A DNA stretch of 64,000 bases from Salinisphaera shabanensis E1L3A. GTDB taxonomy: Bacteria; Pseudomonadota; Gammaproteobacteria; Nevskiales; Salinisphaeraceae. Below, piece by piece: positions 52,643-64,000 of this stretch. The DNA lies in contig NZ_AFNV02000001.1 of the NCBI RefSeq assembly GCF_000215955.2, positions 186,001 to 250,000 of the forward strand, written 5' to 3'. Under the pieces are notes generated by a model. That model ran no database searches and was not told the DNA's origin. It saw only the letters and a list, made by a program, of their open reading frames with translations. Every line of letters begins with the position of its first letter. Within the stretch, counting starts at the first letter, position 1. The position numbers and the translations under genes are program-made.

Positions 52643-54208
52643 TCAGTACACGTCGCGCAGATAGCGATGTTCCGACGATAGCGTTTCCACGTAGCGCTTG
52701 GCCTGGGCCTCGCTCATCTGGCCCTGCTCCATCACGATATCGTGCAAGGCCTTGTCCACGTCCTTGGCCATACGCTCGGCATCGCCACAGATATAAATCA
52801 CAGCACCGGCTTCCAGCCAGGCCCAGAATTCGCGTGCCTGTTCGCGCATACGGTTCTGCACGTACACCTTTTCCTTCTGATCGCGCGAAAACGCGAGCGT
52901 CAGCCGGCTGATCAGCCCGCTGCTGCGCCATTGCTCGAGTTGGTCCTTGTAGATATGGTCCTTGGCCGATTCCGGGTTGCCGAAGAACACCCAGTTTCTG
53001 CCGGCGTCACCGCGCGCCTCGCGTTCCTGAAGAAACGCCATCAACGGCGCGATGCCGGTACCGGGGCCGATCATGATGGCCGGGTGGTCGCCATCGGCGT
53101 TCACCCGGAACTCCTGGCTGGGCTGGATATACATCGGCACTTCGCCATGCCGCGACAGACGCTTGGCCAGAAAGGTCGATGCCACGCCCTTGTAACCACG
53201 CCCGTAGACGGCCGTTTTCACCACGGCGACGGTGGTATGGATCTCCGTGGGATACGGGCGTGACGACGAGGCAATCGAATATAGCCGCGGCTGGAGCGGG
53301 CTAAGCGCATCGATGAGATCCTGCAGCTTCGGCCGCGCGCTCGGATAAACGCGTACGATCTCGAGCAGCGTCTGGCCCTCTTCCACGCCGCGCTCGGCAA
53401 GCATGCGCAGGTCCTCGGCCTCGTCCGCATCGCTCGCCGATTCAGCCAATACCGATACCACGTCGTCGCTGGGCTTGGTGATATCCACCTCCTTGAGCAG
53501 CACCTGTCGCAGCAACTTGTTTTCGCCGTCGTGCGATTTCACCTTTTCGCCGCCGGAGCAATCGATATCCGCGAGAATCGCGTCTACGGAGCGCGGGTCG
53601 TTCTCGGGATAAATGCCCATCGAGTCGCCGGCCTCGTACTCGATGCCGGAGTCGCCCAGGTCAATGACCACATGGCGCGTATCCTTGCTCGAGCCTTCGG
53701 CGTTGAGCGGCGTACTCGATTTGAGTTTGGCCATATACGGATTGTCGCGCGTGCCCAGCGGCGCTTTTTTCTTCGGTTTCGGCTTGGGTTCGGGTTTTTC
53801 TTCTTCGCCCCCACCGCTATTCGCCGCTTCGTGTTCGGCGACGAGTTCCTTGAGCTTGCGCTCGGTTTCCTTGGCGCCGGGCACACAGCGGTTGAGGTCC
53901 TCGCCTTCGAAAGCGATGGCTTCTGCATAGGTCTTGCACAGATAGCCGCATTGACCACAGTCGAGCTGCGCCATGGCCGCCATGAGTTGGCGCTCGTGGG
54001 GCTTGCCTTCGGCCAGCTCCATGCGTTCTTCCATTTCCATGCCCGGATCGTGCCAGGGGAAGGATTCCTTGGCTTCGCCGCCGCCCTGCTCGGCGCCGCC
54101 CAGCGAGCCTTCCCAACCGGCCAGCGCGGAAATCAGGCCATTGAGCCATTCGCGCTGTTCGACTTCGAACGGCGCGTCTTCGGGAATCAGATCGACTTGT
54201 GTGGGCAT
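52643..54208 (-). CDS. Fe-S/FAD/NADPH reductase (CysJ-like without flavodoxin domain), putative nitrite reductase electron donor
   Basis: 521 residues. About 60-130: a four-Cys Fe-S segment (LDCGQCGYLCKTYAEAI plus a later Cys, NRCVPGA). A charged Pro/Lys/Glu linker (EKPEPKPKPKKKAPLG) follows, then a CysJ-type FAD domain with RLYSIASSS and GVASTFLAKRL and an NADPH domain with MIGPGTGIAPLMAFLQER and YICGDAERMAKDV, ending in the usual aromatic RDVY. The flavodoxin domain of CysJ is missing; the Fe-S module presumably replaces it. Placed 81 bases after the siroheme reductase gene, it probably feeds it electrons from NADPH. Confidence 0.87.
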   Translation of the reverse strand: MPTQVDLIPEDAPFEVEQREWLNGLISALAGWEGSLGGAEQGGGEAKESFPWHDPGMEMEERMELAEGKPHERQLMAAMAQLDCGQCGYLCKTYAEAIAFEGEDLNRCVPGAKETERKLKELVAEHEAANSGGGEEEKPEPKPKPKKKAPLGTRDNPYMAKLKSSTPLNAEGSSKDTRHVVIDLGDSGIEYEAGDSMGIYPENDPRSVDAILADIDCSGGEKVKSHDGENKLLRQVLLKEVDITKPSDDVVSVLAESASDADEAEDLRMLAERGVEEGQTLLEIVRVYPSARPKLQDLIDALSPLQPRLYSIASSSRPYPTEIHTTVAVVKTAVYGRGYKGVASTFLAKRLSRHGEVPMYIQPSQEFRVNADGDHPAIMIGPGTGIAPLMAFLQEREARGDAGRNWVFFGNPESAKDHIYKDQLEQWRSSGLISRLTLAFSRDQKEKVYVQNRMREQAREFWAWLEAGAVIYICGDAERMAKDVDKALHDIVMEQGQMSEAQAKRYVETLSSEHRYLRDVY

Positions 54209-54289: not shown

Positions 54290-56227
54290 TCAGCCCGTGC
54301 GTTGGCCGTCCTGAGCGGCTTCGGCCTCGTCCGGCGTGCGGTCGTAATCGTCTGTGGCGGCATCGTCGCGTTCGGTTTTGACTTCTTCCGGCGTATCCGC
54401 CTGTGCTTCGGCCTCGGAATAGGCTTTTTCTTCGGATTCTCTTTGCGCTGCTGCCGCTTTATCCGAGCGCTCGGCCAAACGCTTGCGAAGATCATCGATC
54501 TCCTGGCGGCGCGCGAAGGCAACAAAACGCTCGCCGTCCTGGCGTTCTTCGAGATACAACCCCAGCAGGTTTTCCAGATAAGCGTTCAGATGCACGACGG
54601 GGATCGAGGTCGCCAGCTCGCGGGCGATGCCTTCCTCGCTTTCGTAGCCGCCGCCGATATAGACATGAAAACCGTCGACCTGGTCGGCCTCTTCTGGATC
54701 GTCGGCCTCCGGGTCGGCCACGCGCGCACCGAGCAGGCCGATATCGCCGACATAATGCTGGGCACAGGAGTTCGGACAGCCGGTCATATGAATATTGAGC
54801 GGCTCGTCCAGGTCGAGCGTGGCTTCGAGATGGTCGACCAGCTTGAGCGCGTTGCCCTTGGTTTCGGCGTTGGCGAACTTGCAGCCGAAGCTGCCGGTAC
54901 AGGCCACCATGCCGGTACGCGCGGGGCTGGCGTTCACATGCAGGCCGAGTTGCTCGATACCGCTGACCAGCGCGTTCATGTCGGACTTGTCGACGTTGCC
55001 CAGCAACAGGTTCTGCCAGACCGTCGTGCGCATCTTGGAATCGGCATAGCGGTCGGCCAGATCGGCCAGGCCGTGCATCTGGGGAATGGTCAGCTTGCCG
55101 ACCGGCAATACGATGCCGGCGTATTGCTTGTCGTCGCCGTGATCGTGGATGCTGATATGGCCGGCTTTTTCGACCGGATGCCGGGCTTCGCAACGCGATA
55201 GCGGATAGCGCCGCAGCGTGAACGGCAGCTGTTTCTGCACTTCGCGCATGAACTTGTCGAAACCCCAGCGATCGAGCACGTATTTCAGGCGGGCCTTGTC
55301 GCGGCTGGTGCGATCGCCGTTGGCAAGAAAGACATGCAGCACGGCATGGGCCACCGGTACACATTCCTCGGGCTTGAGCATGACGCCGGTATCGCGGGCG
55401 AAATCCTTGTGGCCGGTGATACCGCCCAGACCCATACGAAAATACGGCCGGCGCGGCAGTGGACCGTCGGCTTTGGGCATGACGGCCGAAAAACCGATGT
55501 CGTTGGTGCCTTCCAGGGCGCTGATGCGCCCGCCGCCGTCGAAGGCGATATTGAACTTGCGCGGCAGGCCGTAGAGCTCGCGGTGGTTGAGAATATGGTG
55601 GTGCATCTGCTTGCAGTACGGCGTGACATCGATCAGCTCATCCGGATCGATACCGGCGAGCGGGCTGCCGGTGATGTTGCGAATGTTGTCGCCGCCCGAA
55701 CCCTGAACCACCAGACCGACATCGGCGAGGCCGGTGAGCACGTTGATCGGGTCTTTCGGGCCGATCTCGCGAATCTGCAGGTTCGCGCGGGTGGTGACAT
55801 GGGTATAGCCACCGCCGTAGGTGTCGGCAAGATCGGCCACGGCCCGGAACTGGTGCGACGAGAAAATACCGCCCGGCATACGCAGCCGGCACATATAGCT
55901 GTCCTGATTGGGGGCGACATAGAACATGCCCCGCCCTTTCATCAGAAATACGTCGTCACCCTTGGGATATTCGCCGGCGTTGGCGAACTGCACCATCTCG
56001 TTCCACATGTCGTTGGGGTTGAGATCGGCCTTGGCTTGTTCCTGGCTGGTCAGCTCGCCGCCCATCGCCTGGGCACGAATACGCGCCTGCGAATGGAAAT
56101 CGTCCGGTCGCAGCCGCTTGCCGGTGGTCAGCCCGGTCATCCCGGGCACGCCCCGGGCAATATGCAGCCCGGCGGTCACGCCCTTGAGATAGCGCTGCTG
56201 TTCTTCATCAAACGTGTTGTCGGTCAT
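54290..56227 (-). CDS. NirA-type siroheme/[4Fe-4S] nitrite (or sulfite) reductase
   Basis: 645 residues with two-fold ferredoxin-like plus siroheme-binding repeats. The coupled cluster/siroheme cysteines are visible as CTGSFGC (about 440 and 446) and TGCPNSC (about 481 and 485). GGGYTHVTTRANLQIREI and similar segments fit the substrate pocket. Sequence style matches the NirA family, and the nitrate genes next to it favour six-electron reduction of nitrite to ammonium. The last 75 or so residues form a very acidic Glu/Ala/Asp tail not found in most relatives. ATG 56227 is supported by CCGGAG seven bases ahead. Confidence 0.88.
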   Translation of the reverse strand: MTDNTFDEEQQRYLKGVTAGLHIARGVPGMTGLTTGKRLRPDDFHSQARIRAQAMGGELTSQEQAKADLNPNDMWNEMVQFANAGEYPKGDDVFLMKGRGMFYVAPNQDSYMCRLRMPGGIFSSHQFRAVADLADTYGGGYTHVTTRANLQIREIGPKDPINVLTGLADVGLVVQGSGGDNIRNITGSPLAGIDPDELIDVTPYCKQMHHHILNHRELYGLPRKFNIAFDGGGRISALEGTNDIGFSAVMPKADGPLPRRPYFRMGLGGITGHKDFARDTGVMLKPEECVPVAHAVLHVFLANGDRTSRDKARLKYVLDRWGFDKFMREVQKQLPFTLRRYPLSRCEARHPVEKAGHISIHDHGDDKQYAGIVLPVGKLTIPQMHGLADLADRYADSKMRTTVWQNLLLGNVDKSDMNALVSGIEQLGLHVNASPARTGMVACTGSFGCKFANAETKGNALKLVDHLEATLDLDEPLNIHMTGCPNSCAQHYVGDIGLLGARVADPEADDPEEADQVDGFHVYIGGGYESEEGIARELATSIPVVHLNAYLENLLGLYLEERQDGERFVAFARRQEIDDLRKRLAERSDKAAAAQRESEEKAYSEAEAQADTPEEVKTERDDAATDDYDRTPDEAEAAQDGQRTG

Positions 56228-56362
56228 ATCGAACTCCGGTTCTCGGTCCGGCTTTGAGTCGTAAACGGAAGCGATCCGCACTGCGTGAATGGCGTTGTCG
56301 CGCCCAACGGCTGTGCTTGCTCTGCGTGCATCTGCGCCAACCGGCGAGCGTGTGTGTCGGTG

Positions 56363-59041
56363 CTATTCATCTGCCTGGGTCTCGGCGATGAGCGCCGCGA
56401 TTTCAGGCTTGCAGGAGCCACAATTGGTGCCGGCTTCGAGGGCCTCGCCCACGGCGGCGACCGAGTCCAGGCCCTGCTCGTCGATCGCACGGAGGATCGT
56501 GTTGCGCGCGACGCCGAAACAGGAACACACCTGCGGACCCGGATCGGCGCCCGGATCGGCCGGGCGGCCGGCCAGCAGGCCGATGCGCTCGGTCTCGTCG
56601 ACGGGCTCGCCGGTGAACAGGTTGGCCAGCCAGCTGCGCTCGGGCAGCGCTGCCGGTTCGGGGGCGACGAACACACAGGCCTCGATATGGCCGGCGTCCA
56701 TATGCGCCGCGCGATAGCGCCCGGCGGCGGAATCCACGGCTTCCAGCCAGTCCGCCGTGCGCTCGCCCACGCCGAGCCAGCTGCGCGCGGTTGTAGCCCA
56801 GGCGTCCGGCGTTGTCAGGCCGGCGATCTCGTAGCGATAGAAACGCTCGCCCGGCACTTTCACCCAGTAATCGATGCTCGACTCGGCCGCCAGCTGCAAC
56901 GGTCGGCTGGCCAGAATGAAGCCATGCCAGGCTGCGTCGAACGGTGCGATGGCGGCCGGCGTGTGCTTGAACTCGGGTTCGCCCGAAATCGGACAGACCG
57001 CCGGATTGGCGAGCGCGCCCACGCGCGCACGGGCTGCGAACTGGTCGTTCCAGTGCATGGGCACGAACAGCGTGCCTTCGCGCTGGCCGGCCGTGACAAT
57101 CACGCGAACATGCGCTTCGCCCAGCGCGGTCGACACCGTGGCGATGGCGCCATCGGCTACCCCGTAGCGCTTGGCATCTTCGGGATGCACTTCCACGAAT
57201 GGCTCGGGAATATGCGCAGCAAGCCGCGCGGACTTGGCGGTGCGCGTCATCGTATGCCAGTGGTCGCGTATGCGCCCGGTATTGAGCGCCAACGGCCACT
57301 CATTGCTGACCGCGTTGGCCGGCCCGCGCGGCGTGACCGCCACCAGATGGGCCTGGCCGTCGCGGGTGGGATACACGCTGTCGGTAAACAGACGCCGGCT
57401 ATCCTGTGCGACCGGCATTGCCCCCGCAGCGCGCAGGGTCTGCGGCGCGAATATCGGCCAGCGCACCGGCTTGAGTGTGTCGTATTCGCTATCGGTGAGA
57501 TCCGTCAGACCGGCGAGGTTGAGCACGCGCTCGCCATCGTTTTCGAACGCGGTGAGCGCGGCATGCTCGCGAAAGATTGCGGCGGCGCTATCGAAATCGA
57601 AGCCGTCAGCGAAGCCCATCCGACGTGCCACATCGCAGATGATGTCCCAGTCGGCGCGCGTATCGCCGGGCATCGGCAGGAACGACCGCTGGCGCGAAAT
57701 GACGCGTTCGGAGTTGGTCACCGTGCCGCTTTTCTCGGCCCAGGCCGCGGCCGGCAGCAGCACATGGGCCCGGTCGACCGTATCGGTATGGCGCATGCAG
57801 TCCGACACGGCCACGAACTCGCAGGCTTCAAGTGCGCGCTTGGCGCGATCGGCATGCGGCAGGCTCACCAGCGGATTGGTGGCCATGATCCAGACCGCCT
57901 TGACCTCACCCCGCTCGATCGCCTCGAACAGTTCGACGGCTTTGAGTCCCGGTTCGTCAGCAATGGCCGGCGAGCCCCAGAAGCGTTGCACCCGCTCGGC
58001 CGCGTCGAAGCCCATATGCGCGGCCAGCGTGCTGGACAGCCCGCCGACCTCGCGCCCGCCCATGGCATTGGGCTGGCCGGTGATCGAGAACGGACAGGCG
58101 CCCGGCTTGCCGATCCGATCGGTCAGCAAATGGCAATTGAGAATGGCGTTGACCTTGTCCGTGCCCGCCGAGGACTGATTCACGCCCTGGGAGAACACCG
58201 TCACCGTACGCTCGGTTTGAGCGAACAGCTCGAAGAAGGCGGCGACGGTGTCGCGATCCACGCCACAGGCCTCGGCCACGGCATCGATATCGCCGATCTT
58301 GTGCGCCTCGGCGACGGCGTCCTGCGTGCCGGGCAGATCGCTGGCAACACCGTTCTCGGCCAGATAGCCCAGCAGGCCGTTGAACAGATGCACGTCCGTG
58401 CCGGGCGCTATGGGCAAATGCAGGTCCGCGCCTTCGGCGGTGGCCGTACGACGCGGATCGATCACCACGAGTTTCTTGTTCGGATCGTTTTCCTGGGCGG
58501 CGACGATGCGCTGATAGACCACTGGATGGCACCAGGCGGTGTTCGAACCAACCAGCACGACGAGGTCGGCGACTTCGAGATCCTCGTAGCAGCCGGGCAC
58601 CACGTCCTCGCCGAAGGCGCGCTTGTGGCCGGCTACTGCCGACGACATGCACAGCCGCGAGTTGGTATCGATATTCGCCGAACCGATATAGCCCTTCATC
58701 AGCTTGTTGGCGACGTAGTAGTCCTCGGTGAGCAGCTGGCCCGAGACATAGAACGCGACAGCGTCCGGGCCGTGTTCGGCGATGATCTGGCCGAAGCGGG
58801 CGGCGACCTCGTCCAACGCGTCGTCCCAGCTCGCGCGCCGGCCATCGACCACCGGATGCAGCAATCGGCCTTGCAGCCCCACGGTGTCCGCCAGTGCCGT
58901 GCCCTTCGAACACAGGCTGCCGAGATTCGAGGGATGCGCGCTGTCGCCCGCCACGCTGACCGCGTCGTTATCGACCACGGCATTCACGCCACAGCCGACA
59001 CCGCAATACGGGCAGGTGGTACGGGTGGTCACCGCGTTCAT
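56363..59041 (-). CDS. nasA: Assimilatory nitrate reductase catalytic subunit
   Basis: 892-residue cytosolic molybdopterin enzyme reducing nitrate to nitrite. N-terminal [4Fe-4S] cysteines C10, C13, C17 and C44 (TCPYCGVGCG, LCSKG); then Mo-bisMGD domains with the active-site Cys region LCMSSAVAGHKRAFG, GSNTAWCHPV, QGVNQSSAGTDKVNAI, and a C-terminal dinucleotide-binding domain. The final 60 residues are a BFD-like [2Fe-2S] domain (VCSCFGVARNTI, GTNCGSCKPEI), as in Klebsiella NasA. ATG 59041 shares one base with the stop of the reductase subunit gene (TGATG). Confidence 0.93.
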   Translation of the reverse strand: MNAVTTRTTCPYCGVGCGVNAVVDNDAVSVAGDSAHPSNLGSLCSKGTALADTVGLQGRLLHPVVDGRRASWDDALDEVAARFGQIIAEHGPDAVAFYVSGQLLTEDYYVANKLMKGYIGSANIDTNSRLCMSSAVAGHKRAFGEDVVPGCYEDLEVADLVVLVGSNTAWCHPVVYQRIVAAQENDPNKKLVVIDPRRTATAEGADLHLPIAPGTDVHLFNGLLGYLAENGVASDLPGTQDAVAEAHKIGDIDAVAEACGVDRDTVAAFFELFAQTERTVTVFSQGVNQSSAGTDKVNAILNCHLLTDRIGKPGACPFSITGQPNAMGGREVGGLSSTLAAHMGFDAAERVQRFWGSPAIADEPGLKAVELFEAIERGEVKAVWIMATNPLVSLPHADRAKRALEACEFVAVSDCMRHTDTVDRAHVLLPAAAWAEKSGTVTNSERVISRQRSFLPMPGDTRADWDIICDVARRMGFADGFDFDSAAAIFREHAALTAFENDGERVLNLAGLTDLTDSEYDTLKPVRWPIFAPQTLRAAGAMPVAQDSRRLFTDSVYPTRDGQAHLVAVTPRGPANAVSNEWPLALNTGRIRDHWHTMTRTAKSARLAAHIPEPFVEVHPEDAKRYGVADGAIATVSTALGEAHVRVIVTAGQREGTLFVPMHWNDQFAARARVGALANPAVCPISGEPEFKHTPAAIAPFDAAWHGFILASRPLQLAAESSIDYWVKVPGERFYRYEIAGLTTPDAWATTARSWLGVGERTADWLEAVDSAAGRYRAAHMDAGHIEACVFVAPEPAALPERSWLANLFTGEPVDETERIGLLAGRPADPGADPGPQVCSCFGVARNTILRAIDEQGLDSVAAVGEALEAGTNCGSCKPEIAALIAETQADE

Positions 59042-60309
59042 CAGGCAGCCTCCGCGTCCACGGGTTCTGCGCCGGGTAGATAGGCCTGACCGAACAACAG
59101 CAGATCGCGAAAAGCCGAGACGTCCGCGCCCTCGCGCATGAGCTTGAAATACCAGCCGCCGTCGCGGGTGTCGCCATAGAGCACGACGCCGACAATGCGA
59201 TCGTCGCGCAGCACGATGCGCTTGTAGACGCCACGGCGCACATCGGAAAACGTCAGCGTTTCGCTGCCCTCGGCGTCGGAAAAATCGCCGGCGGAATAGA
59301 CATCGATGCCGGTAACCTTGAGCTGGGTGGCGGTCACCGAGCCTTCGTACTGGGTATGGCCGCGGTAGGCCAGATGATTGGCACAGACGCTGGCCTGATC
59401 CCACAGCGGCGCGACCAGGCCATAGACCGAATGGCGATGCTCGACGCATTCGCCGACCGCATAGATACGCGGATCGTAGGTCTGCATCGTGTCGTTGACG
59501 ACGATGCCTTTTTCGCAGTGCAGACCGGCGGTCTTCGCCAGTTCGACATTCGGGCGGATGCCCACGGCCATGACCACGATATCGGCATCGATCTCGGAGT
59601 CGTCGGCATCGTCGAAGCGCAGGCCGGTCACACGGCCGGCTTCGTCGCCGAGGATGGCGGCAGTCTTCGCGCCCATGCGAAACGACAGCCCGCGCTGGGT
59701 AAGCGAGTACTGCAGCAGATCGGCCGCGGTGGGGTCGAGCTGGCGCTCCATGAGCGTGTCCATGAGATGGACGATGGTCACGTCCATGCCGCGCTTGTGC
59801 AGACCATAGCCGGCTTCCAGACCGAGCAAGCCACCGCCGATGACCACGGCCTTGCCGCCTTTTTCGCTGGCCTCGACCATGCGATGCACATCGCCGATAT
59901 CGCGAAAGCTGATCACGCCGTCGAGCGTATGGCCGGGCACGGGCAGTATGAACGGCGTGGAACCGGTGGCCAGCAATAGCCGGTCATAGCCGATCTCGCG
60001 CCCCGACTCGGAAACGACCATGCGCCGACGGCGGTCGATTTCAACAACCGCTTCGCCCGTGTAGAGCGCGATATCGTTGTCGACATACCACTCGCGCCCA
60101 TGCGTTTCGATTTCGGCGAAATCCTTGTCCCCGGCCAGCACCGGCGAAAGCATGATGCGGTTGTAGCTGGCATGGGGCTCGGCGCCGAAAACCGTGATGC
60201 TGTAGCGTTCCGGTGCCGCCTCGAGCAGGTCCTCGATCACGCGGACACCGGCCATACCGTTACCGATGACCACCAGATCGAGTTTCGGTTGTGTCGCGTT
60301 ATCGCTCAC
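59041..60309 (-). CDS. NAD(P)H/FAD nitrate reductase electron-transfer subunit (NasC/NirB N-terminal-like)
   Basis: 422 residues. Two dinucleotide-binding motifs (VVIGNGMAGVRVIEDLL for FAD, VVIGGGLLGLEAGYGLHKRG for NAD(P)H), then AVGIRPNVELAKTAGL and a third domain with VYAVGECVEHR-type and SGVVLYGDTRDGGWYF-like segments, as in NirB N-termini and Klebsiella NasC. No [2Fe-2S] cysteines are left at the end. It passes electrons from NAD(P)H to NasA. GTG 60309 is chosen for TAGGAGCAGG just ahead and because the FAD motif begins at residue 12. Confidence 0.9.
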   Translation of the reverse strand: MSDNATQPKLDLVVIGNGMAGVRVIEDLLEAAPERYSITVFGAEPHASYNRIMLSPVLAGDKDFAEIETHGREWYVDNDIALYTGEAVVEIDRRRRMVVSESGREIGYDRLLLATGSTPFILPVPGHTLDGVISFRDIGDVHRMVEASEKGGKAVVIGGGLLGLEAGYGLHKRGMDVTIVHLMDTLMERQLDPTAADLLQYSLTQRGLSFRMGAKTAAILGDEAGRVTGLRFDDADDSEIDADIVVMAVGIRPNVELAKTAGLHCEKGIVVNDTMQTYDPRIYAVGECVEHRHSVYGLVAPLWDQASVCANHLAYRGHTQYEGSVTATQLKVTGIDVYSAGDFSDAEGSETLTFSDVRRGVYKRIVLRDDRIVGVVLYGDTRDGGWYFKLMREGADVSAFRDLLLFGQAYLPGAEPVDAEAA

Positions 60310-60319
60310 GAACCTGCTC

Positions 60320-61687
60320 CTACGCCGGTTCCGGCGAATCGCTGCCACGGGCCTTGATCGGGTCGTCACCGGCCGAAGCCGTATCGAAAACGGCTTTCTC
60401 TTCGGCCAGCACATCGGCCGAGAAGCGCACGAAAAACGCGAAGAACGAACACACGAGCACGGCACAGCCGAGAATCATCAGCCCCTGGCCGTAAGACAGC
60501 GACTCTGTCTTGAATAGAAAACCGGCCAACACCGCGCCGGCGTTACCGCCCGCGCCGACGATGCCGTTCACCCCGCCCAGCGCTTTCTTGTTCATGAACG
60601 GCACCAGGCCGAAGGTCGCGCCTTCCGACATCTGCACGAACAGACTGAATACGATCATGGTCGCGATTGCAGCCGTCAGCACTTCCATCTGGGAGAATGC
60701 GATGAGCGCGATGCCTTCAATGAACATGGCCGCGAACAGGAATCTCACCCGCCCGTTCAGGCCCATAAAACGCGCTGACAGATCCGAAAAGAAACCGCCC
60801 ATGGTGCGCGCGAAGATGTTCATCAAGCCGAACAGGCCAGCGATCAGCCCTGCGGTCTTCAGATCGACGTCGAAGTTGTCGAAAAAGTAGATTGCGGCCA
60901 CATTGTTGATGGTCAGCTCAACGCCAAAGCAGCCGGCATACACCACGAACAGTGCCCAAACCCGATAGTCCTTGGCGGCATTGCGAAAGCTCGACCAGCC
61001 GCTGTTTTCGTTTTTGGCTTCAGGAATCTTGCCGGCGGCACGCAGATCCGAATAGTTGCCGTCGGGCGCATCCTGGGTGAACTTCCAGTACGCGATACCC
61101 AGCGCAAACAAAATCACGCCCGGCACCACCATGGCCAGGCGCCAGCCCAGCGTTTCGCTGATGCCCAGCGACACGATCGCGGTAAAGATCAGCGGCATGA
61201 CGATCTGGGTGGTCCCGCCACCGAGATTGCCCCAGCCCGCGGTGGTGGCATTTGCCGTACCCACGATATTGGGCGCGAACATCACCGACGTGTGGTACTG
61301 GGTAATCACGAACGACGCGCCGATCGCGCCGATACACAATCGCGCCAGCAGAAAGCTCTCGAAGCTGTCGGCAAAGCCGATACACATCACCGGAATCGAG
61401 CCCAGAATCAACAGCGACGAATAGGTCTTGCGCGGGCCAAATTTGTCGCACAGCGGGCCGATGAGCAGACGCACCAGCACCGTGATCGCGACCGAGGCAA
61501 TGATGGTCGAGCCGACCTGCGACTTGTCGAGGTTCAGATCCTCGCGCACCACCGCCATGAGCGGCGCAATACCGAACCAGCCGAAAAAGCATAGATGAAA
61601 GGCCAGCCAGCTCATGTGGAAGGCCCGCATCTGTACCGATTTGAAATCGAACAAGCGAATACGGGTCGCTTTGTTGGCAAGTTCCAT
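60320..61687 (-). CDS. narK: Nitrate/nitrite transporter, MFS NarK/NasA family
   Basis: 455 residues with 12 hydrophobic helices. The two nitrate signature segments are visible: AGWGNLGGGTTQIVMP in the fifth helix region and GIVGAGGNAGAVLAGF in the eleventh; the substrate-binding Arg residues likely lie in ARLCIGAIGA and NIFARTMGG. It imports nitrate or exchanges it with nitrite. Ten bases before the electron-transfer subunit gene, in the middle of the assimilation operon. Confidence 0.93.
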   Translation of the reverse strand: MELANKATRIRLFDFKSVQMRAFHMSWLAFHLCFFGWFGIAPLMAVVREDLNLDKSQVGSTIIASVAITVLVRLLIGPLCDKFGPRKTYSSLLILGSIPVMCIGFADSFESFLLARLCIGAIGASFVITQYHTSVMFAPNIVGTANATTAGWGNLGGGTTQIVMPLIFTAIVSLGISETLGWRLAMVVPGVILFALGIAYWKFTQDAPDGNYSDLRAAGKIPEAKNENSGWSSFRNAAKDYRVWALFVVYAGCFGVELTINNVAAIYFFDNFDVDLKTAGLIAGLFGLMNIFARTMGGFFSDLSARFMGLNGRVRFLFAAMFIEGIALIAFSQMEVLTAAIATMIVFSLFVQMSEGATFGLVPFMNKKALGGVNGIVGAGGNAGAVLAGFLFKTESLSYGQGLMILGCAVLVCSFFAFFVRFSADVLAEEKAVFDTASAGDDPIKARGSDSPEPA

Positions 61688-61746: not shown

Positions 61747-63123
61747 TCACGGCGTCATGGCGCCATGCCGGCTGCCGGCTACAGGCGCGTCGAGCGAGGC
61801 GTTGAGAGTTTCCAGGCGGCGATAGAGCGTAGGGCTGAAACGCGCGCGATCCGGCGCGAGATACGCCATCACAGCGCTCGGGTCGAAGATCGCGTGGTCA
61901 AGGAACCGATCGGACGCCATCGCGATCGAGCCACCGCCGGACGCCTGCAGCGACCACGGCCCTTCGTGGGCACCCTCGGTCTTGTGATCGGCGGCCGGAC
62001 ACGCCACGCCGAGCGGCTCTACCGCTGCACGATAGATATCCGGGCGATAGACACAGTCGGCGGTAGCAGCGATATCGACCGCCTCGCCGATCTGCCCCCA
62101 GCGCAACATCTGGGCGATGAACCACATCGCATGCGAGCGCCAGGTAAACGTAGCTGCATGACGATGAAACACGTTGAAATACGGCGCCGGCCGCGGTGCC
62201 GCGCCCGGCTGGTAGCAAAAGCGCCCGGACAGCGTGCGCCGGATGACTTCGGCTGGCGCGCCCACGTACTCGGGTGCGGCGATGGTGTCGGCAGCAAATT
62301 CGCGATTTTCGTGACTATCCAGCCACGCGGCGGTACGCACGACGGCCCTTACCAGCGCGCGGTGGGTACGCGGATAGGCCTCGGCCCATTCGCGGGTCAC
62401 GCCCAGAACCTTTTCCGGCGCGTTGTTCCAGATCTCGTAGCCGGTAATCAACGCACGCCCCAATCCGGCGCGTACTGCCATCTGATTCCACGGCTCGCCG
62501 ACGCAATAACCCGCCAGTCGGCCAGCCTGGAGATTAGCGACCATGCGCGCCGGCGGCACGACGATCAGTCGAGCATCGCGGTCGGGATCGATACCGCCCG
62601 CGGCCAGCCAGTACCGTAGTTGATAGTTATGCGCCGAGGTCGGATGCACCATGCCGAACGTCAGCGGCGCGAGCCCCGCTTCCCGATCGGCTTCGATTAC
62701 CTGGCGTAGTGCCTGCGCGCTGCACGGGCGTGCCGCAGCCGCCTGCGGGTCGAGCGCTTGCATTCGCTCGTAGAGGGCATTGGATACAGTGATCGCGTTG
62801 CCGTTAAGACCCAGCGATACCGCCGTGACCATGGCATGCGGCGCCGCGCCCACGCCGAGCGTGGACGCGATCGGCATGCCGGCCAGCATCTGGGCGCCGT
62901 CGAGCAGTCCGAGCGCCACCTTGTCGCGAATCGCTGCCCACGACGATTCGCGCGAGAGAGTCACATCAAGACCTTCGGCCGCGAAGAATCCGGCTTCCTT
63001 GGCCATGACCAACGGCGCGCAGTCATTGAGCGCAATGAAGCCCAATTTGAGCCAGGGCCGCTCCACGGCCGGATCGACCGCATAGGGCATACGTCCGAAT
63101 GTTGCTTCGTGCCAGTTGGTCAT
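61747..63123 (-). CDS. nasS: Nitrate sensor NasS (NrtA/CmpA family, cytosolic)
   Basis: 458 residues of the NrtA/CmpA nitrate-binding family: WLKLGFIALNDCAPLVMAKEAGFF at the start, MLAGMPIASTLGVG, TFGMVHPTSAHNYQLRYWLAAGGIDP and GYCVGEPWNQMAV. There is no signal peptide or lipobox, so it is cytosolic; with nasT upstream and no ABC permease/ATPase genes, it fits NasS, which holds NasT inactive until nitrate binds, rather than a transport receptor. ATG 63123 has AAAGGA upstream. It is the first gene behind the ANTAR-type leader; whether its own expression is also controlled by that leader would be a feedback. Confidence 0.87.
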   Translation of the reverse strand: MTNWHEATFGRMPYAVDPAVERPWLKLGFIALNDCAPLVMAKEAGFFAAEGLDVTLSRESSWAAIRDKVALGLLDGAQMLAGMPIASTLGVGAAPHAMVTAVSLGLNGNAITVSNALYERMQALDPQAAAARPCSAQALRQVIEADREAGLAPLTFGMVHPTSAHNYQLRYWLAAGGIDPDRDARLIVVPPARMVANLQAGRLAGYCVGEPWNQMAVRAGLGRALITGYEIWNNAPEKVLGVTREWAEAYPRTHRALVRAVVRTAAWLDSHENREFAADTIAAPEYVGAPAEVIRRTLSGRFCYQPGAAPRPAPYFNVFHRHAATFTWRSHAMWFIAQMLRWGQIGEAVDIAATADCVYRPDIYRAAVEPLGVACPAADHKTEGAHEGPWSLQASGGGSIAMASDRFLDHAIFDPSAVMAYLAPDRARFSPTLYRRLETLNASLDAPVAGSRHGAMTP

Positions 63124-63172
63124 CGCGTTGCGTCCTTTTTCCACCCTCACTGCGGGCCCGTTTTTCGCGCAT

Positions 63173-63226
63173 AAAAAAAGCCCGGCTGCCTGCGTGGCGA
63201 GATGCGCCACGCGACATGCCGGACTT
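63173..63226 (-). terminator. Leader terminator ahead of nasS
   Basis: On the minus strand AAGTCCGGC (63226-63218) pairs with GCCGGGCTT (63186-63178), enclosing GCGTGGCG/CGCCACGC, and is followed by seven T. The 5' arm is part of hairpin P2 (63234-63221), so both cannot form at once: the basis of antitermination. Confidence 0.85.
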
Positions 63227-63278
63227 CGTTGTCCTGATCGAGTTGTGTCGTGCGTCGCGATCGTTCGCGCTATCGCAC
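63221..63278 (-). promoter_or_regulatory. ANTAR-type antiterminator: two hexaloop hairpins (P1, P2)
   Basis: P1: GCGCG-AACGAU-CGCG core (63269-63256) within a longer stem GTGCG/CGCAC (63278-63250). P2: GGAC-AACGAA-GUCC (63234-63221). Both loops are six bases with A at 1 and G at 4, the known ANTAR target pattern, and P2 overlaps the terminator stem. NasT binding P1/P2 should prevent termination when NasS releases it. Confidence 0.8.
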
Positions 63279-63292
63279 TCAGGGCTTATCCA

Positions 63293-63309
63293 AGCTAAAA
63301 CCGTGCCAC
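63293..63309 (-). promoter_or_regulatory. Candidate sigma-54 promoter of the nas operon
   Basis: On the minus strand GTGGCACGGTTTTAGCT: it matches the consensus TGGCACG-N4-TTGCW at all but one base and has the exact GG-N10-GC spacing. Transcription would start about 12 bases downstream of the GC, just before hairpin P1. Confidence 0.65.
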
Positions 63310-63428
63310 CTAATACCGGCGGCGTCCGCATCCATTTCAGTTCATGCACTTGCCCATCGAACGCAATGCGCCAGCCGAAGCAAACACGGCGCCCCTACGA
63401 CCCGCATCGACGTTTCGCAGTGCACAAT

Positions 63429-63445
63429 CGCACTCTATTCGTGCA
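63429..63445. promoter_or_regulatory. Candidate NtrC-binding site
   Basis: CGCAC-TCTATTC-GTGCA keeps the GCAC-N7-GTGC half-sites of the NtrC consensus, about 135 bases upstream of the sigma-54 promoter and just beyond the nasT stop. Enhancer role inferred from position. Confidence 0.5.
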
Positions 63446-63454
63446 GCCGCGGCG

Positions 63455-64000
63455 TCACTCGTTGGCGGCATGAACCATGAGCTGGCGCGCAATTTCGGGC
63501 AATGGCAGGCCGCGGTCCATCGCCGTCTTGCGCAGGCGCGTATAGGCCTGTTTTTCGCTGATCGCACTACGCTCCATGAGCAGGCATTTGGCACGATTGA
63601 CCACCTGACGATCCGCCAGGGTTTCGCGAGTTTCCGCCAGTTCGCGCTTGAGCGACTCCATCTGCTGGTACTGGCGCATGGCCACGTCCACGAGCGAGCG
63701 CACCAGCGCCGGTGACAGTCCTTCCATCACATAGGCGCTTATACCGGCCTCGGACGCCTGCGCCATGAGCCGGCGATCGTCTTTCGAAGACAACATCAAC
63801 AGTGGTTTGGGATAACGCTCGCCGAACGTGGCCAGATCCTCGAGCACGTCGCGCGAGGGCGACTCCGCACCCACCACGATCGCATCGGGCGCATGACGAT
63901 CGACCGCCGCATACAGATCGGCGTCCTCGTCGAGCACATCGACGACCTCGAAGCCGGCCTGCTCGATGACTGCACGAAGCGTCGACAAGCGAGCCGAATG
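63455..64000 (-). CDS. nasT: NasT antitermination regulator (receiver-like + ANTAR domain), 5' end cut off
   Basis: About 181 residues visible; the frame runs off the window end without a good start. The TTG at 63988 is internal: the residues before it (HSARLSTLRAVIEQAGFEVV) continue the usual NasT N-terminus. A receiver-like domain (about 1-115; no obvious phosphoryl site in what is visible, but the start is missing) and a coiled-coil linker precede the ANTAR domain: RQVVNRAKCLLMERSAISEKQAYTRLRKTAM near the C-terminus. NasT is the RNA-binding partner of NasS and acts on leader hairpins like those between it and nasS. Confidence 0.88.
   Translation of the reverse strand, partial: HSARLSTLRAVIEQAGFEVVDVLDEDADLYAAVDRHAPDAIVVGAESPSRDVLEDLATFGERYPKPLLMLSSKDDRRLMAQASEAGISAYVMEGLSPALVRSLVDVAMRQYQQMESLKRELAETRETLADRQVVNRAKCLLMERSAISEKQAYTRLRKTAMDRGLPLPEIARQLMVHAANE

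Follow-up and report, generated by a model that had tools for sequence, protein, structure and literature searches.

A putative nitrate-responsive NasT leader with its own candidate sigma54/NtrC promoter in front of nasS in Salinisphaera shabanensis

Antitermination by NasT and related ANTAR proteins in combination with Ntr control is a known mechanism, and the locus described here is a variant of its wiring. In Paracoccus the nasA leader is a binding target of NasT, and the NasS-NasT complex falls apart in the presence of nitrate (PMC3795266). Both leader hairpins have been mutated there, and an NtrC site controls nasT (PMC5424462). Paracoccus denitrificans thus shares with our locus the ANTAR protein NasT, the sensor NasS, the leader hairpins and the NtrC input (PMC5424462, PMC3795266), but there a common transcript covers nasT and nasS, with the leader following both of them in front of nasA, whereas in Salinisphaera nasS lies behind the leader and nasT outside. 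The nasF leader of Klebsiella oxytoca also combines Ntr control with nitrate antitermination and has P1 and P2 loops with A1 and G4 (PMC3369936, PMC5424462). It differs in using the one-component protein NasR, with no NasS. In the amiE operon of Pseudomonas aeruginosa the sensor is encoded within the gated operon, and so is AmiR. The amiE leader (AmiC/AmiR; PMC3369936 for the operon name) resembles ours in its ANTAR antitermination and its separate ligand-binding sensor but, unlike AmiR, the Salinisphaera ANTAR protein is encoded outside the operon. The EutV leaders of Enterococcus faecalis show the same dual hexaloops with P2 inside the terminator (PMC3369931, PMC8934654), but they are controlled by phosphorylation and have linkers of 5–12 nt compared to 15–21 nt in Salinisphaera. 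Different from the NasS-NasT cases considered are a gated sensor with an ungated antiterminator and, in this lineage, a loose P1 hairpin. No description of a leader preceding nasS was found among the titles, abstract beginnings and passages that the literature survey covered.

The window, meaning the whole 64,000-nt stretch of contig NZ_AFNV02000001.1 from S. shabanensis E1L3A that was analysed, carries the locus on the minus strand (Table 1). As originally predicted, nasT and nasS lie on either side of the leader. NasT has 189 amino acids, the first 24 bases of its gene falling past the window end, and is the only ANTAR protein found in a genome-wide match search of the 3.76-Mb draft genome. 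A receiver-like and ANTAR protein next to a homologue of nitrate-binding proteins, in which inspection of the N-terminus by eye revealed no signal peptide, is the combination by which a NasS-NasT pair is recognised, and we assign the two proteins to this type from their sequences. Behind the leader the order is nasS-narK-NirB-like oxidoreductase-nasA-nirA-CysJ-like, in which the NirB-like and CysJ-like genes accompany the originally predicted narK, nasA and nirA. The 331-nt gap between nasT and nasS contains, from 5' to 3', the NtrC-type dyad, the sigma54 site, P1, P2 and the terminator.

Table 1: Features of the nasT-nasS locus in window coordinates.
Feature	Position	Strand	Evidence
nasT, receiver-like + ANTAR antiterminator	63455..~64024 (window ends 64000)	minus	PF03861 65 bits, PF00072 32.5 bits
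NtrC-type dyad TGCAC-N7-GTGC, directly past nasT stop	63430..63445	minus	GCAC-N7-GTGC in 9/10 genus loci
sigma54 -24/-12 site TGGCACGGTTTTAGC	63294..63308	minus	pattern + genus conservation
P1 hairpin, marginal (outer stem 63278-63274/63254-63250; inner stem CGCG 63269-63266/63259-63256; loop AACGAU 63265-63260)	63250..63278	minus	letters, folding, shuffles, genus comparison
ACAAC box	63242..63246	minus	ACAAC or ACAAU shortly 5' of P2 in 10/10 genus leaders
P2 antiterminator hairpin GGAC-AACGAA-GUCC (GGAC 63234-63231; loop 63230-63225; GUCC 63224-63221)	63221..63234	minus	A1/G4 hexaloop in 10/10 genus leaders
Intrinsic terminator, overlaps P2 3' arm + loop positions 4-6	63173..63227	minus	folding
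nasS, NMT1-like nitrate sensor, gene 1 after leader	61747..63123	minus	PF13379 292 bits
narK, NarK-family nitrate/nitrite transporter	60320..61687	minus	TIGR00886 307.8 bits, slightly below cut-off 311.7
NirB N-terminal-like FAD/NAD oxidoreductase	59041..60465	minus	TIGR02374 partial, 451 bits, below cut-off
nasA, nitrate reductase-like molybdopterin enzyme, BFD [2Fe-2S] domain C-terminal	56363..59041	minus	family matches; none of the NCBIfam models above its own cut-off
nirA-family nitrite reductase	54290..56281	minus	NF007126 789 bits, above cut-off
CysJ-like flavoprotein	52643..54208	minus	NF004859 597.7 bits, above cut-off

The letters of the two predicted loops, AACGAU and AACGAA with A1 and G4 in both, their coordinates and the minus strand were all confirmed. 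The same is true for the terminator sharing an arm with the second hairpin, as its 5' arm holds the entire 3' arm of P2. This terminator folds with −37.8 kcal/mol (z −7.7, equalled by 0 of 200 shuffles), ends in seven U and also forms in a free fold of the full 181-nt stretch; of the seven U, the first is paired with the G-A-A of the P2 loop. A P2-like hairpin with an overlapping terminator is not a rare geometry in the window, where it occurs eight times compared to a mean of 1.45 in 20 shuffled sequences (range 0–7), but the P2 upstream of nasS is the only one of these eight with an AANG loop. To follow its conservation we searched 17 genomes of the family, 14 of them from the same genus, ten of which have a clear nasT. 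All ten carry the A1/G4 hexaloop of P2 between nasT and nasS, with the stem GGAC/GUCC becoming GGGC/GCCC in some relatives, and in all nine genus leaders that were folded the 3' arm of P2 lies within the terminator; in the tenth (G013), which was not detected by our leader scan, the terminator as judged by eye includes only part of the arm. Loop positions 4–6 of P2 are inside the terminator stem in 39 of 40 leaders (31 from the class and 9 from the genus, the exception being L060), and thus the G4 that ANTAR proteins read would be hidden in the terminated form. Across the whole genome the genus-type P2 pattern matches exactly in the nasS leader alone and at five further places with a single mismatch (2 in the control), and this narrow search revealed no further target of NasT among the exact matches. 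The original prediction of a NasT antitermination leader before nasS is thus supported by P2 in ten of ten genomes, the overlapping terminator in nine folded leaders and the single ANTAR protein; its weak points are P1 and the noise-level covariance-model score described below.

A promoter between nasT and the leader had not been part of the original prediction. Promoters of the sigma54/NtrC type have a GG-N10-GC element at −24/−12 and an NtrC dyad upstream, and the gap contains both, with NtrC (above cut-off) and RpoN encoded in the genome. From the site the leader RNA is predicted to start near 63283. The pattern TGGCACGGN5GCT, which was composed after the site had been seen, occurs once in the window compared to 0.05 expected. 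Genome-wide, sites with one mismatch, the leader's own included, are not enriched (126 compared to 117 for the reversed-pattern control), and therefore the leader site counts by its conservation and place: it is found in the nasT-nasS gap of all ten genus loci, in nine by pattern and in G013 by inspection of the sequence. The evidence for the dyad is likewise its conservation, with G015 as the one exception in the genus, and not its rarity, since TGCACN7GTGC occurs twice in the window where 1.11 are expected. One of the seven exact sigma54 sites in the genome lies 35 nt upstream of nasT, the start of which was taken from the proteins of relatives. The leader and the operon thus seem to have a nitrogen-starvation promoter of their own with nasT outside, and nasT and the leader seem to be served by separate nitrogen-regulated promoters. 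With a promoter in this position, transcription of the leader would not have to come through nasT, and nasT itself would escape the gate. Two of the genus loci show further changes. In G013 (L090) roughly 256 bp with the inverted ends GGCCTGTTGATGTTTCGT are inserted between its NtrC-type dyads and the sigma54 site, and the leader is retained. In G015 (L092) the nasT and nasS frames are interrupted and the 8.2-kb contig gave no match to narK or nasA, which reflects either a decayed locus or assembly errors.

We consider it likely that this region acts as a two-input switch, in which NtrC and sigma54 start transcription, NasT freed by nitrate allows the passage of the terminator and NasS is itself made by read-through. 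Under nitrogen limitation phosphorylated NtrC would bind the dyad past nasT and activate the sigma54 promoter in the gap, and the resulting RNA would meet the intrinsic terminator about 100 nt further on. In the absence of nitrate NasS would hold NasT and transcription would stop there. With nitrate or nitrite present NasS would release NasT, which would stabilise P2 with P1 helping, so that the terminator could not close and read-through would transcribe nasS-narK-nirB-like-nasA-nirA-cysJ-like. With nasT having a sigma54 site of its own and lying outside the leader, only NasS of the two regulators would be made through the gate, and it would build up until NasT is titrated. The promoter site, the dyad, P2, the terminator, the gene order and their conservation are visible in the sequences, from which NasT binding, its release by nitrate, the operon extent and the feedback are inferred. 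If this is right, a dedicated nitrogen-starvation promoter and a nitrate-responsive terminator are combined under the control of NasT, and the sensor gene is itself among the gated genes, an arrangement shared by roughly half of the gammaproteobacterial loci sampled. A clear and testable prediction would follow for the NasS:NasT stoichiometry, the threshold and the shut-off.

A negative feedback that may set the response threshold, as originally predicted, is plausible and in line with the behaviour of a toy steady-state model of gated NasS with arbitrary parameters. The wiring behind it is not special to this genome. In the model gated NasS kept the NasS:NasT ratio between 1.1 and 5.0 across a tenfold range of NasT and three leak values, and the half-inducing nitrate was shifted up. 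The loop is not the best solution in every respect, because constitutive NasS exceeded gated NasS in fold induction in most settings when NasT was low or intermediate (97 and 90 compared to 35 and 25 at the lowest leak). The model also bears on a different reading, somewhat doubtful in our view, by which most NasS comes from leaky termination, the feedback hardly matters and gating by the leader chiefly concerns the enzymes: a leak of 5% at low NasT already resulted in a fivefold excess of NasS, but read-through out of nasT would hit the same terminator.

The weak part of the leader is P1, which is marginal. The predicted distance of 15 bases between the hairpins holds when it is measured from the outer stem of P1 and becomes 21 nt from the inner stem, and when folded freely the P1 loop is reduced to a tetraloop by an A1-U6 pair. 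Among 5000 shuffles of the 49-nt stretch an ANNGNN hairpin with at least 4 bp appeared at this place in 3.0% and one with AANG in 0.8%. An uninterrupted A1/G4 hexaloop of this kind is present in six of the ten genus leaders, including those of distant members, which suggests from the sequence comparison that P1 is ancestral. It is absent in G011, G009, G014 and G016, the first two of which have the NasT proteins nearest to that of the window (94 and 93% identity). Of the 'both hexaloop hairpins' in the original prediction P2 thus stands in every genus leader and P1 only in part. Both possible linkers also lie outside the 5–12 nt of the E. faecalis eut leaders. For EutV, A1 and G4 of both loops and their spacing matter and a 14-nt linker drastically reduces induction (PMC3369931), while 20 added linker nucleotides abolish antitermination; one hexaloop is bound at a time and Met172 may exclude tetraloops (PMC8934654). 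In the class, however, linkers range from 4 to 72 nt (29 leaders in which a P1 was located), so a length of 5–12 nt may not be a defining feature of NasT leaders.

These properties of P1 raise the question whether the switch works from P2 alone, or from P2 and the ACAAY box, with the AACGAU hairpin being decayed or a chance structure in this lineage. We regard this as unlikely. In its favour are the four leaders without an uninterrupted P1, the tetraloop, a chance frequency of 3% for such a hairpin and the ACAAY box in all ten genus leaders, and the minimal ANTAR binding motif described for EutV is one hexaloop (PMC8934654). However, EutV must contact both hexaloops to prevent termination (PMC8934654) and NasR needs P1 too (PMC3369936), and the six leaders retaining an A1/G4 P1 speak against it. 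The natural P1 variants in the lineage should be useful for asking whether NasT needs both hexaloops. Rather improbable as a whole is an extended form of the two-input switch: a recurrent self-titrating circuit in which the antiterminator drives the gated synthesis of its inhibitor and NasS stays at or somewhat above NasT across widely differing NasT levels, together with a NasT in this genus that uses only P2 strictly, with P1 under relaxed constraint or substituted, possibly by the ACAAY box. Two relatives, G006 (L013, G006:C34) and G007 (L012, G007:C84), encode a second NasT-like protein with 40–41% identity to the window NasT.

The covariance-model search, the outcome of which had been named as decisive against the original prediction if negative, was negative. 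Rfam gave no match in the whole window at the gathering score and none in 63000–63460 up to an E value of 5. We also built a model (R1) from 15 leaders of other gammaproteobacterial families (alignment A3), all with short linkers and taken from the 31 class leaders listed, two of the 31 being without a P1 found; a first alignment of 24 leaders (A2) had been dropped for A3 as its P1s were misaligned. In these 15 leaders seven of nine P1/P2 pairs are changed on both sides, a covariation biased by the choice of the P1s in a hairpin search. R1 scored the window element with 10.7 bits (second among 39 at E 1.2), which is noise level and below a 16.0-bit match within nirA. Three matches were obtained in the whole genome up to an E value of 10, the nasS leader not among them; the best (24.2 bits, C29:67804-67843), on visual inspection a P2-like hairpin lacking a U-tract, was judged to be a chance match. 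In the genus R1 covered P2 in three of ten leaders (L092, L090, L085) and as the top match in none. A visible reason for the low score is that the genus loops end with GAA or GAU and most class loops with GGC. With the score at noise level, the case for the leader rests on P2, the terminator, the promoter and their conservation. That the terminator merely ends the nasT transcript, with nasS read from its own downstream promoter and the hexaloop a coincidence, would fit a strong terminator in the gap past nasT and the frequent P2-with-terminator geometry, but is highly improbable given a conserved sigma54 site directed into the terminator, the P2 arm inside it in the nine folded leaders with an A1/G4 loop in all ten, and only 49 nt from the U-tract to nasS.

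In order to see how common a gated nasS is we surveyed 369 gammaproteobacterial genomes, 99 of which have a NasS match at E 1e-40 or better. Outside the genus of the window 38 matches extend at least to query residue 410, and the corresponding loci were examined for all but G178. A tree of 179 NasS/NrtA-like proteins separated an NrtA clade of 75 with a support of 100; from the 37 loci five NrtA (L079-L083) were removed, and from the other 32 (31 surveyed and L076) six with Tat-exported or ambiguous proteins, leaving 26. Five of these six (L048-L051, L054), with Tat-exported, NrtA-like N-termini, had belonged to an initial count of nine loci with the leader directly before nasS, and L052 was removed along with them for its ambiguous N-terminus. 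By the leader calls of our own script, part of which were checked by eye, the NasS domain is behind a NasT-type leader in 14 of the 26 loci: directly behind it in four (L056, L059, L062, L074), as the gene after nrtABC in five (L047, L053, L060, L061, L065) and as the C-terminal half of NrtC in five (L063, L066, L069, L073, L075). From the other 12, eight have nasT and nasS adjacent with no leader between and one has nasS before nasT; for L055, L070 and L071 no leader was found in the stretch searched. The class leaders before nas and nrt genes are of similar design, with mostly AANGGC loops and an overlapping terminator, and 25 of the 31 listed have a sigma54-like pattern within 200 nt. Among 80 named loci the order nasT-leader-nasS with an apparently non-exported NasS occurs in Inquilinus limosus DSM 16000 (L120), a Rhizobium MAG (L112) and a Chromatiales MAG (L101; leader by eye), while adjacent nasT and nasS are the larger class (23 of 61 NasS-side proteins). 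The arrangement with NasS behind the leader is thus recurrent, neither peculiar to the S. shabanensis genome nor universal.

In seven loci (L055, L063, L066, L069, L071, L073 and L075) NrtC, the ATPase of the nitrate transporter, carries a NasS domain fused to its C-terminus, with open reading frames of 693–761 amino acids. A literature search for NrtC together with NasT gave nothing relevant. The fused transporter may itself sense nitrate and hold NasT. An ANTAR protein is encoded in six of the seven genomes with such a fusion and none in G189, and in G179, G170, G323, G368 and G357 the NasS profile has, apart from the fusion, a single match, which is at the level of NrtA.
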